Assembly: GCA_009746045.1 (NCBI GenBank)
Contig: RPFO01000034.1
Location: forward strand, 1,658,146-1,722,145
Source of the DNA: Mesostigma viride
Lineage: Eukaryota; Streptophyta; Mesostigmatophyceae; Mesostigmatales; Mesostigmataceae
Direction of reading: 5' to 3'
Length of the DNA: 64,000 nucleotides
Within the stretch, counting starts at the first letter, position 1. Every line of letters starts with the position of its first letter. The position numbers were made by a program, and so were the translations under genes. The notes beneath the pieces were generated by a model. It made no database searches. It was not told where the DNA came from and was given only the letters and a program-made list of their open reading frames with translations. Below, piece by piece: positions 59,631 through 64,000 of the stretch.

Positions 59631-62600
59631 ATGAGGATTGAGGAGGTGCAATCAACAACAAAGAAGCAGCGGGTTGCCACTCATTCTCATATTAAAGGGC
59701 TTGGACTACGGGTGAGTTTTCAAGAGACACCTTTCGCCAATATATGTTTGTTTATAAGATTTCGTGCGCACCTTCTTCTTGGCAAAGTATATTCCTGTAT
59801 TACGCCTGACTTCTTATGGCAAGTGTTGTTATTTGCTGCTGTGATATGGTGACAACAGGAAGATGGCAGTGCAGTGCCCATGGGGGCAGGGTTTGTGGGC
59901 CAGGAGGCGGCGCGGGAGGCGTGCGGCCTTGTCGTCGACATGATTAAGCAAAAGAAAATGGCGGGGCGGGCACTATTGCTAGCCGGAGCCCCCGGAACTG
60001 GAAAAACTGCGCTTGCGCTGGGCATCGCGCAGGAACTCGGCTCCAAGGTAGTTGGCTCCTCCTGCCCCTCTCTCTCCCCCTCTCTCTTGATGTGACCCTC
60101 CTCTCTGTTGAGATGCCCCAGCCCTCTCTACCATGCCCCATCTCTCTCTTGTGAGATGCGCCATCGCTTTCTCCCTCCCCCCCCCCCCCCCTTTCTCCCC
60201 CCCCCCCCTCCTTTCTCTCTCTGCCCCCCCACACACGCTCTCTCTCTCTCTCTCTTGTTCCCTATCGTGTGACATGTGTCAGGTCTTCTTCTGCCCCATC
60301 CTCTCATGAGTCGCCCTCTCTCTCTTGCGCGACGTCCGCCATCTGGTGCCACTTTTCTCCCCCACTGTCCCTCCCCATCTTTTTTGTGTGATGTGGCCCC
60401 ATGTTGTCTTCTGCCAGGTCCCCTCCTGCCGCATTAACATGCCCTATCTCACTTTTGTGGCATGCCCCATCCCTGTCACGTGGCGTGTGCCAGGTCCCCT
60501 TCTGCCCCATCCCTCTCACAACACTCCCTAACTCACTCGTGTGACGTGCCCCCATCCCTGTCACGTGATGTTTGCCAGGTCCCCTTCTGCCCCATGGTTG
60601 GCTCAGAGGTGTACTCGAGCGAGGTCAAGAAGACCGAGGTACTCATGGAGCACTTCCGCCGTGCGATCGGCCTGCGCATCAAGGAGACAAAGGAGGTGTA
60701 CGAGGGAGAGGTGAGGATGGGGGGAGACAAAGGCGGTGGGCGAGGGGGAGGACAATGTAGTGTGCGAGGGAGAGGTGGGGACGAGAACTAGTGGCCGGTG
60801 AGGTTTGGCGAGAGAGCTGGAGGTGGCGGGGAAGGAAGAGGATATAGTGGGGAGACACAGGGGAGGGAGAGAGGAGGCCAGGCATTGGCGGCAGAGAGGG
60901 TGCGTGGGGAGACCCAGGGAGAGGGGGTAGGGGCGGATGATCGTAGAAAACCAAGCGAGACTGGATGACTGTGATTTGCCAAACTGTTTTGCGATGGCAT
61001 GGTTTGCGTAATCAACCTTGGCATAGAGGGAGTCCAGCTGGACATCTGGCGCCTCTAGCCTTTGCAAGGTCTATCTTGTCGCGCATGGAATCTTTTATCC
61101 GTCAAGAGCAGGAAGTCTCCACCCACTCCCAATATTGGTGGCAGGCACGGCCGCACGGGTGTCGATGTGTTCCTGGAGGGTATTGCGCGGGTTCCTTTTT
61201 TTTTTTTTTTTTTTGCTCAGGCTCTGCATTTATGGCCCTGGTCATGCAGCCGCAAGCACATGCCAACAGTGTTTCTAGTAAGGGTTTTTGCTCGCGTCAG
61301 CCTGGCTGACTCGCCGCCGTTGGCGGCGCGTCAGACAGCTGACTGGTTGCCAACGGCGGCAAGTTAGCCAATGGAAGCTCAAGTGGGGAGTCCGAAAGGG
61401 GTTCTCTTGCTACAGGGCCGAACGACCCCTGAGATAAGGTTTGGGGCACATGTCTAGCTTTTGAGTCAGTCTGACTTGTAAAAGCGCAACGAGAAATGGG
61501 TTCGATCCATGATACAAAATTCAGAATAATATGACCTACTTCAACTGTTTTTCTGAATTTACTGTTACACTTAATTAGGATGGCATCCACAATGCCACAG
61601 CCCAGTACGGCACACACCCACATCAAACTTATTATTTATCAAACTTAAAATAAAAGACTTTAATGATGAGCTCGTGAACACTAGTGATGTCCCAGCTAGT
61701 GGCATGGCAAAACGACCGGCCTGGGGGCTCACCAGCATTGCCGGACTGAGCCGATGCTGCTGCTACACCACTGGCAGCATTGCTATCATTTCCCCTTTTC
61801 CTCTTGCTGCGGTTCAGCTCGTTTGCTGCCTGGCCTACGCCAACAATGGCACGCGGACTAGGCGCAGGCGCTTTGGCCATGTCGGCGGCCTGTTTCGGCA
61901 TTAAAAAAGCTGCGATCCCCCCAGATTTAATTTTCCCCAGTATTCCTTTCGGCGCCATCCCTTCACCCAAAAACTTCCAACCCCCAGGTCGCTAACTTTT
62001 CTAGTTGACTATCAGACTAAACCATTAACGTTGTTAAATGTTTATACAATATTTCTGACCCGGGCCGAAATTTCACCTACGCATATAGTAATGAATGGAT
62101 CCAACAAATCTAAAGCGTTAATCAACACACCTGGAATCCGATTCAAAGCAATCTACAAGGAAAGGATGTTCATCTAAATCAGGCAACCTCGCAAAGCTGC
62201 GTCAATCAGCTCATCAATCATATTCCGGAGGATCGACCATTGCCAGTCGTCCTCGGCTAGGTATTGTGCTACCACTTCGCATTCGTCTCGAACAGTGGTC
62301 TAGACTCTAGAAGTCTCGTCACTCTCGCCGCCAAGCAGGCAAGGGCCGGCAGGTCTGGCACTTGGCATGGTAACGGGCTGTTCAGGAAGGATTCCGCACT
62401 GTCTGACGCATAGACTCGGTGCACATGAGTACTGACGCAGGACGTGCTGCCTAAATTTACGCGTCAGACGACTGACGTGCAGTCAAAATTTACGCGTCAG
62501 ACGACTGACGCGGGGCCAAAATTTACGCGTCAGCTGTCTGACGTGCGGACGAAAAAGTCGGACGCGTCAGACACTGACGCGTCAGCGGCTGACGTATACG

Positions 62601-64000
62601 TCCCGTTACTAGAAACACTGCATGCCAATGTCGCTGTACTTGCTCCTACGCCACGAGAACTTGCCGATAGTCTGGAATGCCCCCCAACTCGTGAAACTAC
62701 TTTTTCTTATTCTTTCAACATCTTTCATTACCTACCAGGGCACCAGAACACTTGCCCCCGGCTCGGCCTCACCTGCGTCTAGTGGCCACTTGCCGTGCCC
62801 TTGCCCGCCATCGTATCTTTACCCATGCTCACCCCCACGGTGACAGGTGACAGAACTGTCGCCGGAGGAGACGGAGAGCAGCGTGGGCGGCGGATACAGC
62901 AAAGCCATCTCGCACGTCGTCATCGGCCTCAAGACAGTCAAGGGGACGAAACAGCTCAAGCTTGACCCGACGATCTACGACGCGCTCACCAAGGAGAAGG
63001 TGGGTTGTTTCTCGTGTTGCAAAGGACAGGGTGAGTTGTTGCTTGTGTCGCAATGAAGAAGGCTGTTTCTTGTGCCACAAAGGATGTTGTGGGTTATTTC
63101 TTGTGTCACCGAGGAGAAGGTGTCTTGTTTCTGGGGTTCCAGAGGGCGTGGTGGGTTGTGACTTATTGCTTGCTTGCAAAGGAAAATGTGAGCTATGACA
63201 CACACGCAAGGGGATTGGTGGCGGCGGGATACCCGCGTTGTTGTTTCTACGATAACAACTGTGTTGGAAGCTGGACTGGGCCCTGGTATGCCTTCAGTCC
63301 ATCGCCACGCATTCGCGTGATTTGAATGCCTTCTGTCCACGGTGGGAGCAAGTCGAACCACGAGTCGGTGGACAGCATAAGTGACCATTTGCGCTTCCCC
63401 ATTGGCAGCTCTGCCCGCCTCTTATACTTCGCGAGCCATCAGCGTCAGAAACCCCTTACTGCATTGCATCGGTATTACTGCATTGTTCCTGTTGCTGGTA
63501 CTGCATTGTTGTTTTCATCACAATTAAGCAACTGGAAATGAAATTAATGAATTTCTTTTAAGGAGTTTCATTTTATTTAATTTTTGTATTGACGATTTGC
63601 AGTATAATACTGTCTACCTTTCGACATAAAGGCTCTTTATAAAGGATGTGAAGAAGTTGGAATTTCAGCCAGATGAAATTCAATCTATGAGATTGATATT
63701 GTTATCTTTGCTATTTGTTGTCTCTATCATAGAGTTGCTTCCGGGTATCTCTAGACGGGGGTAGTAACGTGCGAAGGCAACCATGGGAGGCAAATCGGGA
63801 CGCTGCTGCGCATGTACAGCATGTACATGCCGTCACATGCCGGCTTGCAGACTCACCGCTTCTATTGGCCTATATTGGCCATGGTGGTTACTGGCACCAC
63901 ACACTGTTCATCTGCCTTGTTGGACATGGCCCACAGGCCACGGTGATGCCTGCCTACCTACTCACCTACCTGTCGTACCTGCACTTGTGTCATACGCTTG
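59631..64000 (+). CDS. RUVBL1: RuvBL1 (pontin/TIP49) AAA+ ATPase, 3' partial
   Basis: Nuclear AAA+ ATPase that forms a hetero-hexamer with RuvBL2 in INO80/SWR1 remodellers and the R2TP chaperone. Exons seen: 59631-59711, 59859-60047, 60579-60710, 62847-62999; 185 of about 456 residues, with the rest beyond the window (no further exon found to 64000). The N-terminus [20 protein letters not shown] and HIKGLGL are the family signature. [10 protein letters not shown] precedes the Walker A motif GAPGTGKT in exon 2. [20 protein letters not shown] (exon 3) is the conserved sensor region, and [16 protein letters not shown] then [15 protein letters not shown] (exons 3-4) opens domain II. Walker B lies in missing exons. 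Intron 3 carries a hAT-type element. The start is fixed by homology. Confidence 0.95.
60270..60578 (+). repeat. Three upstream copies of the RuvBL1 exon-3 acceptor
   Basis: The real junction TTTGCCAG|GTCCCCTTCTGCCCCAT starts exon 3 at 60579. Copies with AG in the same place begin at 60494 (identical for 17 exon bases), 60418 (GTCCCCTCCTGCCGCAT) and 60283 (GTCTTCTTCTGCCCCAT). Spacings are 135, 76 and 85 bases. CCATCCCTGTCACGTG also repeats ahead of the last two. Confidence 0.92.
60711..60790 (+). repeat. Copies of the RuvBL1 exon-3 donor edge
   Basis: GGAGACAAAGGAGGTGTACG..GGGAGAG|GTGAGG at the exon end is followed by GGAGACAAAGGCGGTGGGCG..GGGGGAG (60723-60750) and GTGTGCGAGGGAGAG|GTGGGG (60760-60782). 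Confidence 0.8.
61267..62620. mobile_element. Non-autonomous hAT-family element (1354 bp)
   Basis: Perfect 15-bp inverted ends CAGTGTTTCTAGTAA and an exact 8-bp duplication CATGCCAA (61259-61266, 62621-62628). The ends match 13 of 15 bases of the complete element at 6997, and the next bases (GGGTTTTTG) also match. Subterminal GCGTCAG..CTGACG palindromes occur at both ends, densest at 62458-62600. No transposase core is encoded; a short minus-strand frame (61970-61632) could be a leftover N-terminal piece (weak). It lies in RuvBL1 intron 3. Confidence 0.93.
63000..63195 (+). repeat. Degenerate copies of the RuvBL1 exon-4 donor edge
   Basis: CTCACCAAGGAGAAG|GTGGGTTGTTTCT at 62985-63012 is echoed by GTCACCGAGGAGAAG|GTGTCTTGTTTCT at 63105-63132 and by weaker units (GCAAAGGACAGGGTGAGTTGTTGC near 63017; GTGGGTTATTTCTTGTG near 63087; GTGGGTTGTGAC near 63149). 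Confidence 0.8.
63196..64000. other. RuvBL1 intron 4 (continues past window)
   Basis: No exon or mobile element recognised. The next RuvBL1 exon was looked for by its expected residues and not found. Confidence 0.5.

Follow-up and report, generated by a model that had tools for sequence, protein, structure and literature searches.

We find that many introns of Mesostigma viride repeat, in direct orientation and close by, the edges of the exons that they adjoin, splice junction included. An earlier note had described such repeats in the RuvBL1 gene, within a stretch of 64,000 nucleotides of contig RPFO01000034.1 (positions 1,658,146 to 1,722,145; assembly GCA_009746045.1), referred to hereafter as the window. 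Exon-edge copying is confirmed here, and it extends well beyond the window to introns elsewhere in the same 440-Mb assembly. In our preferred account these copies are probably the visible part of a general tendency toward short local direct duplication in the introns of this genome, such that much of the observation calls for no special interpretation, with a donor-site excess beyond the neutral expectation being possible in addition.

Exon edges of RuvBL1 are repeated in the flanking introns

RuvBL1 is identified by its Pfam TIP49 domain (E = 7.9e-63) and by a match to a RuvB-like protein 1 chain in the PDB (E = 7.8e-80). The gene lies on the forward strand, with introns at 59712–59858, 60048–60578 and 60711–62846 and a further one beginning at 63000 (past exon 4 the sequence outside the window runs into N; a likely C-terminal piece turns up farther on, tblastn E = 1e-4). 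Both edges of exon 3 (60579–60710) and the donor edge of exon 4 (62847–62999) are copied into the adjoining introns, the two exons being backed by the gene model and by the Pfam and PDB matches alike.

Intron 2 carries three copies of the exon-3 acceptor junction, each with AG kept and with the junction exactly at the position that the earlier note had given: 60283 (60269–60299, 25/31 identical), 60418 (60412–60434, 21/23 identical) and 60494 (60465–60510, 34/37 identical; 93% over 46 nt), the last of these standing 85 nt before the real junction at 60579. Tandem Repeats Finder independently detects an array of 85-bp period at 60412–60595 that spans this acceptor junction. The exon-3 donor had been described as copied twice after 60710; one junction-keeping copy is indeed present, with GT kept and the junction at 60775 (60751–60781, 27/31 identical), whereas the second is only partial and has GA at the junction (60723–60757, 74%). 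The copy claimed for the exon-4 donor edge is found in its place at 63106–63138 (28/33, junction 63120, offset 120), accompanied by two weaker ones at offsets 31 (63022–63048, 22/27) and 89 (63076–63105, 23/30). The three copied edges of RuvBL1 reach z values of 7.3, 8.6 and 4.0, matched in each case by 0 of 100 dinucleotide shuffles.

Copies exceed the controls and recur outside the window

Five genes were modeled in the window (an M3 oligopeptidase, hereafter M3 peptidase, two channel-like paralogs, eIF4G and RuvBL1), yielding 24 complete introns and one leaving the window, with the joined internal exons open in one frame. GT-AG was demanded of every gene model, and other splice types could therefore not appear. 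Pfam backs the models of the M3 peptidase, eIF4G and RuvBL1. Edges of 40 nt, taken from the exon at each of the 49 junctions of the window, were aligned to introns with short-period repeats masked and scored as z against dinucleotide shuffles; control alignments used the antisense of the same intron, non-adjacent introns of the same gene and introns of other genes. Extended alignments were made for the best 12 of the 49.

At z of at least 5, six of the 49 edges (three donor and three acceptor) match their own intron, compared with 0/49 for the antisense strand, 1/293 for non-adjacent introns of the same gene and 1/883 for other genes. The claim thus survived the comparison that the earlier note had set in advance, namely against non-adjacent introns with repeats masked (6/49 versus 2/1176 for all non-adjacent introns together). 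Windows placed 40–160 nt inside exons reached a score of 26 in none of 112 cases and z ≥ 3 in five of the 112 (shuffle seeds vary between runs of this test).

As a replicate we assembled 103 introns from elsewhere in the assembly, drawn from kinesin genes (20 of about 40 gene clusters; 129 exon matches listed), three CCT loci and RuvBL2. The kinesins contributed 89 of 99 introns (the other 10, whose flanking exons were weakly supported, were left out), CCT contributed 11 (from 11 of 15 neighboring exon pairs, one at a small score margin) and RuvBL2 contributed three; the spliced models came from a purpose-written profile alignment, those of CCT from chaining exon matches. By eye, contig C2011 at locus L034 encodes a bacterial-type GroEL, which suggests that some contigs of the assembly are bacterial.

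At z ≥ 5, 29 of the 206 replicate edges match their own intron, versus 0/206 in antisense, 2/780 in other introns of the same gene and 5/4120 in other genes (the last from a sample of 40 edges per intron), or 7/4900 for all introns other than the edge's own; at z ≥ 3 the antisense count is 5/206. The assertion that the copies are duplicated junctions rather than chance tracts is borne out by these direct, local repeats and by an antisense control that is empty at z ≥ 5. Donors predominate in the replicate, with 23/103 at z ≥ 5 against 6/103 acceptors (Fisher P = 0.001). One of the 29 edges, a donor, is a satellite artefact (intron 1 of kinesin locus L022, where the modeled exon falls in a 120-bp satellite) and was dropped from later analyses, leaving 22/102 donors. 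At a score of at least 26 the counts are 28 donors and nine acceptors, of 102 each (P = 0.0009).

Anatomy of the copies

Twenty-eight donor copies have an alignment that crosses the junction. They lie 37–175 nt from the same edge (45–120 nt in 25 of them), and the exon part that is copied measures 18–38 nt in 21/28 when the query is at most 45 nt long, with a mean identity of 0.889; an 80-nt query discloses two longer exon parts, of 73 and 69 nt. Outside arrays, 15 of 18 donor pairs are spaced direct repeats and three are abutting tandems. Spaced non-array pairs look much the same wherever they fall in the 126 introns, the donor, acceptor and interior classes having median lengths of 35, 34 and 32 nt, offsets of 95, 114 and 88 nt, and identities of 0.92, 0.93 and 0.91. 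The spacers of the spaced donor copies are mutually unrelated in an all-against-all comparison (E ≤ 1e-3), except in one paralogous intron pair.

Some donor copies take the form of clean head-to-tail arrays, as in two paralogous kinesin introns (L020-3 and L022-2) that have a 70-bp unit in common. These arrays are 84% alike over 109 nt, while the L020 and L022 introns otherwise look saturated (50–54% aligned identity overall), and the shared array would owe its retention to conversion, selection or a recent origin. L022-3, the paralog of L020-4, shows no counterpart of the copy that L020-4 carries. No inverted copies reach z ≥ 5, which favors slippage, unequal exchange or repair by fill-in and disfavors copying of the hairpin type.

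Junctions compared with intron interiors

We then asked how the junctions compare with the introns themselves. Across 126 introns, a copy lies downstream within 400 nt for 7.41% of the intron bases, compared with 16 of the 126 donor points; for 7.7% of the bases a copy lies upstream, compared with five of the 126 acceptors. The interior coverage predicts 9.3 donors of 126. Under the same detection rule, simulated copies whose exon member is frozen stay visible 1.3–1.7 fold longer, and multiplication by 1.7 raises the prediction to 15.8, next to the 16 seen with arrays counted. Among copies scoring 50 or more, replicate donors are not in excess of interior pseudo-junctions (7 versus 5.5 of 99, P = 0.30); an excess confined to diverged copies is what would be expected if protein selection freezes the exon sequence. 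Replicate acceptors never exceed interior pseudo-junctions (9 versus 9.2 at score 26).

At score 26 the window by itself gives 3/23 donors (P = 0.085) and 2/23 acceptors (P = 0.30), each versus 1.1 expected; P reaches 0.023 for donors at score 32 and 0.043 for acceptors at score 40. An earlier interior control on the window alone had returned 6/47 junctions versus 2.24 expected (P = 0.013).

Tiling with 24-mers across the 126 donors locates the sources more finely. Exon sources 48–120 nt before the junction have copies in only 1/512 cases, and the count rises through 1/124, 7/125 and 15/125 to 16/126 at positions −36, −24, −12 and 0, with 5.0–8.4% in the adjoining intron; at acceptors, the junction gives 6/126 versus 2.1–5.0% in the intron. 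Pairs with a purely exonic source number three, versus 23 that straddle the junction. This profile is as expected if wholly exonic duplications are purged and straddling ones spared.

Splice sites within the copies

The earlier note had offered selection for decoy splice sites as one possible cause. Among copies found without use of the junction, GT is kept in 15/20 where 17.4 are expected from identity, and AG in 3/4 where 3.5 are expected (a second version of the count gives 15/21 versus 18.1 and 4/6 versus 5.0). The copied splice dinucleotides are thus not kept beyond expectation, which leaves decoy selection unsupported. Junction-crossing alignments do retain GT in 27/28 donor copies, and the dinucleotide in 10 of 11 window copies, although this choice of alignments favors retention. 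An in-frame stop precedes the copy donor in 18 of the 28 donor copies, and only two would yield an open extension in frame. The acceptor copy at 60494 in RuvBL1 intron 2 scores 8.5 bits versus 6.8 bits for the real acceptor, and four of the 11 window copies rank first among the GT or AG sites of their intron.

Other genes and features of the window

The same pattern had been said to appear in every other multi-exon gene of the window; this holds for the M3 peptidase and eIF4G, and fails for the two channel-like genes, where 0/8 edges reach z ≥ 3 and no exon-edge copies are found. Junction-centered 40-mers have an intron copy at a score of at least 26 at six of the 49 junctions (RuvBL1 three, M3 peptidase two, eIF4G one; four donors and two acceptors), and the extended alignments show the same six spanning the junction. 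Nine window edges reach z ≥ 3; two edges of the M3 peptidase among them match exon sequence short of the junction and a third is without an extended alignment.

In the M3 peptidase, on the forward strand, the exon at 14218 has its acceptor junction copied twice, with AG kept at 14064–14110 (38/47) and in a diverged form with AC instead of AG at 13952–13999 (37/46), and the donor junction at 15528 is copied with GT kept at 15574–15616 (39/43). In eIF4G, on the reverse strand, the donor junction at 52667 is copied at 52617–52640 (22/24), GT being kept and the preceding AG lost.

The channel-like genes take their name from an apparent likeness, by eye, to ligand-gated channels; for the one such protein put to the test, Pfam returned no hit. 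Position-matched introns of these two paralogs (20100–23010 and 38900–42210, both on the reverse strand) appear by eye nearly fully diverged except near the donors, and the intron at 39262–40219 of one of them houses a telomere-type TTTAGGG array of about 22 units (39325–39474), a repeat type in keeping with a plant or alga. Elsewhere in the window are very long simple-repeat arrays at 749–4850 and 36053–37852 (the first an 8-mer in about 518 units with 97% matches, the second CCAT in 450 units with 99%), as well as an open reading frame of about 822 residues (7854–10319, reverse strand) within M3 peptidase intron 3, which is 6.3 kb long; for this frame Pfam gave no match at E ≤ 0.01. A further open reading frame (46496–47074, reverse strand) looks by eye like the C-terminal portion of a reverse transcriptase of the non-LTR kind.

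Discussion

How might exon edges come to be repeated inside introns? Under the general process that we favor, short local direct duplications would arise throughout introns, and some would happen to straddle a splice junction. One lying wholly within an exon would alter the protein and be removed by selection. One straddling the exon end and donor would do no harm, since the copy would be spliced out from the original donor, which comes first. The exon member would then be frozen by protein selection while the intron drifts, so that exon-derived copies would, as in our simulations, stay recognizable longer than intron-derived ones. With a copy on the acceptor side, the real acceptor would face a rival upstream of it, and to judge from the imbalance between donors and acceptors such copies may be tolerated less often. 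The net effect would be a passive lengthening of introns. As to the source, the most likely origin is slippage, or else staggered breaks mended by fill-in and filler, which leaves direct repeats around unrelated spacer; the earlier suggestion of local slippage or aberrant repair is a likely one.

Several observations weigh against so ordinary a process, and most of them concern the donors. Left without arrays, 14 of 126 introns have donor-straddling pairs versus 3.2 expected from interior density (P = 7e-6), or 5.4 with the 1.7-fold visibility applied; P is 0.0063 if the expectation is doubled and 0.034 if it is multiplied by 2.5. Replicate donors likewise exceed interior pseudo-junctions (of 99) at lower scores, by 28 versus 9.5 at score 26 (P < 1/3000), 24 versus 7.6 at 32 and 14 versus 6.4 at 40 (P = 0.0007), an excess at scores 26–40 that the 1.7-fold visibility explains in part only. 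The depletion of acceptors hinges on an assumption, with five of 126 set against 9.7 (P = 0.072) or, if doubled, against 19.4 (P = 5e-5), and vanishes without arrays (4 versus 3.2 expected). The anatomy also fits imperfectly: the intron part past +6 exceeds shuffles in just 12/28 donor copies, where plain head-to-tail duplication of the whole offset predicts more; among the 20 donor copies found without the junction, identity stands at 11–15/20 over intron bases 7–10 (15/20 at the tenth) and drops abruptly to 6–9/20 at bases 11–15, in a count that allowed no gaps, such that indels may explain part of the drop after +10; and abutting tandems make up 25/46 of the pairs inside introns versus 3/18 of non-array donor pairs. 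Splicing at the first donor, moreover, is a presumption drawn from protein homology.

These points would suit a donor-directed duplication, in which the 5′ splice site region, through transcription or splicing (for example by an R-loop, a stalled fork or reverse-spliced RNA), promotes copying of the exon tail and donor. We hold this to be unlikely, if far from negligible. Donors would on such terms be local copying hotspots in this lineage, the last 20–40 exon and about 10 intron bases being pasted 50–120 nt downstream, which we advance only tentatively; with like reserve, about a quarter of introns might bear a spare donor with exon context (28/102 in the replicate, 3/24 in the window). Beside the non-array excess and the excess over interiors up to score 40, the preponderance of donors over acceptors in both replicate counts, the usual confinement of the copied segment to the last 18–38 exon nucleotides with similarity ending about 10 nt into the intron, and the rarity of exon-only sources all speak for it. 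It is opposed by the lack of excess among copies scoring at least 50, by a donor coverage that, with arrays included, equals interior coverage times simulated visibility, by like-sized spaced events inside introns and by acceptor copies such as those of RuvBL1 intron 2; in the window, too, donors and acceptors are equal in number at z ≥ 5 (3 versus 3) and differ little among junction-spanning copies (four donors, two acceptors). Since visibility fits the donor count with arrays and fails without them, we hold general local duplication to be the likeliest reading and leave room for a donor-directed process.

The remaining explanations fare less well. That selection retains the copies as decoy sites, buffering or regulating splicing, seems to us quite improbable: the strength of the 60494 acceptor, the top-ranked window copies, the near-universal GT of junction-crossing donor copies (an alignment choice that favors it) and the kinesin array shared between otherwise saturated introns would agree with it, but dinucleotides at or below expectation, frequent in-frame stops, two open in-frame extensions in 28 and a copy in L020-4 without counterpart in L022-3 would not. 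It is harder still to credit that the introns arose when exon sequence containing AGGT was duplicated in tandem (the Rogers/Hellsten model), with the copies as remnants; RuvBL1 introns 2 and 3 do sit at AG|GT and the exon start is GT in 5/24, yet in the 24 window introns the resemblance of intron start to next exon start (P = 0.92) and of intron end to previous exon end (P = 0.87) is no greater than in permuted introns, and donor copies lie inside the same edge rather than at the intron's far end. A mobile element or introner that inserted and left a long target-site duplication would account for the shape of the 15/18 non-array donor copies that are spaced direct repeats around an insert; the unrelated spacers (one paralogous pair aside) render it very unlikely, and the repeats, at 21–47 nt, go far beyond the usual length of target-site duplications. 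Chance similarity from low-complexity sequence, to which the abundance of simple repeats in the introns of this genome might point, has a negligible probability, and we rejected it on the repeat masking and on shuffle, antisense, same-gene and other-gene controls that separate clearly in two independent sets.

If the neutral reading is true, intron growth becomes watchable, with frozen exon bases tagging each duplication, and the rate, size and spacing of duplication, together with donor-versus-acceptor purging, become measurable from one genome. Should the donor excess survive larger tests, it would indicate a source of mutation linked to 5′ splice sites, bearing on intron lengthening and on the origin of new splice sites. 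Duplicated junctions also make strong false splice sites, as the acceptor copy that outscores its original illustrates, and are thus a warning to gene finders.

The earlier note knew of no named process that would produce such copies; that statement does not stand, as published accounts cover tandem duplication over an intron–exon boundary (PMC4974935), intron gain by tandem duplication (PMC3443670) and the repeats left by staggered breaks (PMC4202315). A literature search, mostly of papers open without subscription, found no report of junction-straddling copies at such frequency or with such donor bias. Seven mechanisms of intron gain, tandem duplication and double-strand-break repair among them, are listed in a review (PMC3443670). 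Internal gene duplication (Gao and Lynch 2009, as cited) is said in PMC4974935 to be commonly observed, and resembles our case in that duplications fall within genes. The AGGT duplication of Rogers/Hellsten, so far as PMC3443670 and PMC4974935 outline it, shares with ours a duplication that carries splice-site sequence and is tolerated because splicing removes the duplicate; it differs in that the starts and ends of the 24 window introns are unlike the next and previous exon edges.

Two systems come closer. In Daphnia, a 2014 study (PMC4202315) found significant internal direct repeats in 55/90 new and 100/617 established introns and ascribed them to staggered breaks. These are likewise local direct repeats within introns, with passive lengthening proposed, and can include terminal exon bases; the exon-derived repeats there, however, are 4–12 bp long and sit at the far end of a new intron, whereas those of M. 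viride measure about 20–45 nt and stay near the same edge. In the potato RdRp gene, as presented by Ma, Lan and Niu (2016, PMC4974935), a tandem duplication across an intron–exon boundary involves the 3′ end of the intron and the 5′ end of the exon, acceptor included, just as in RuvBL1 intron 2; there the duplicate made an additional, new intron, whereas the M. viride copies, donors as well as acceptors, have apparently been absorbed into the existing one.

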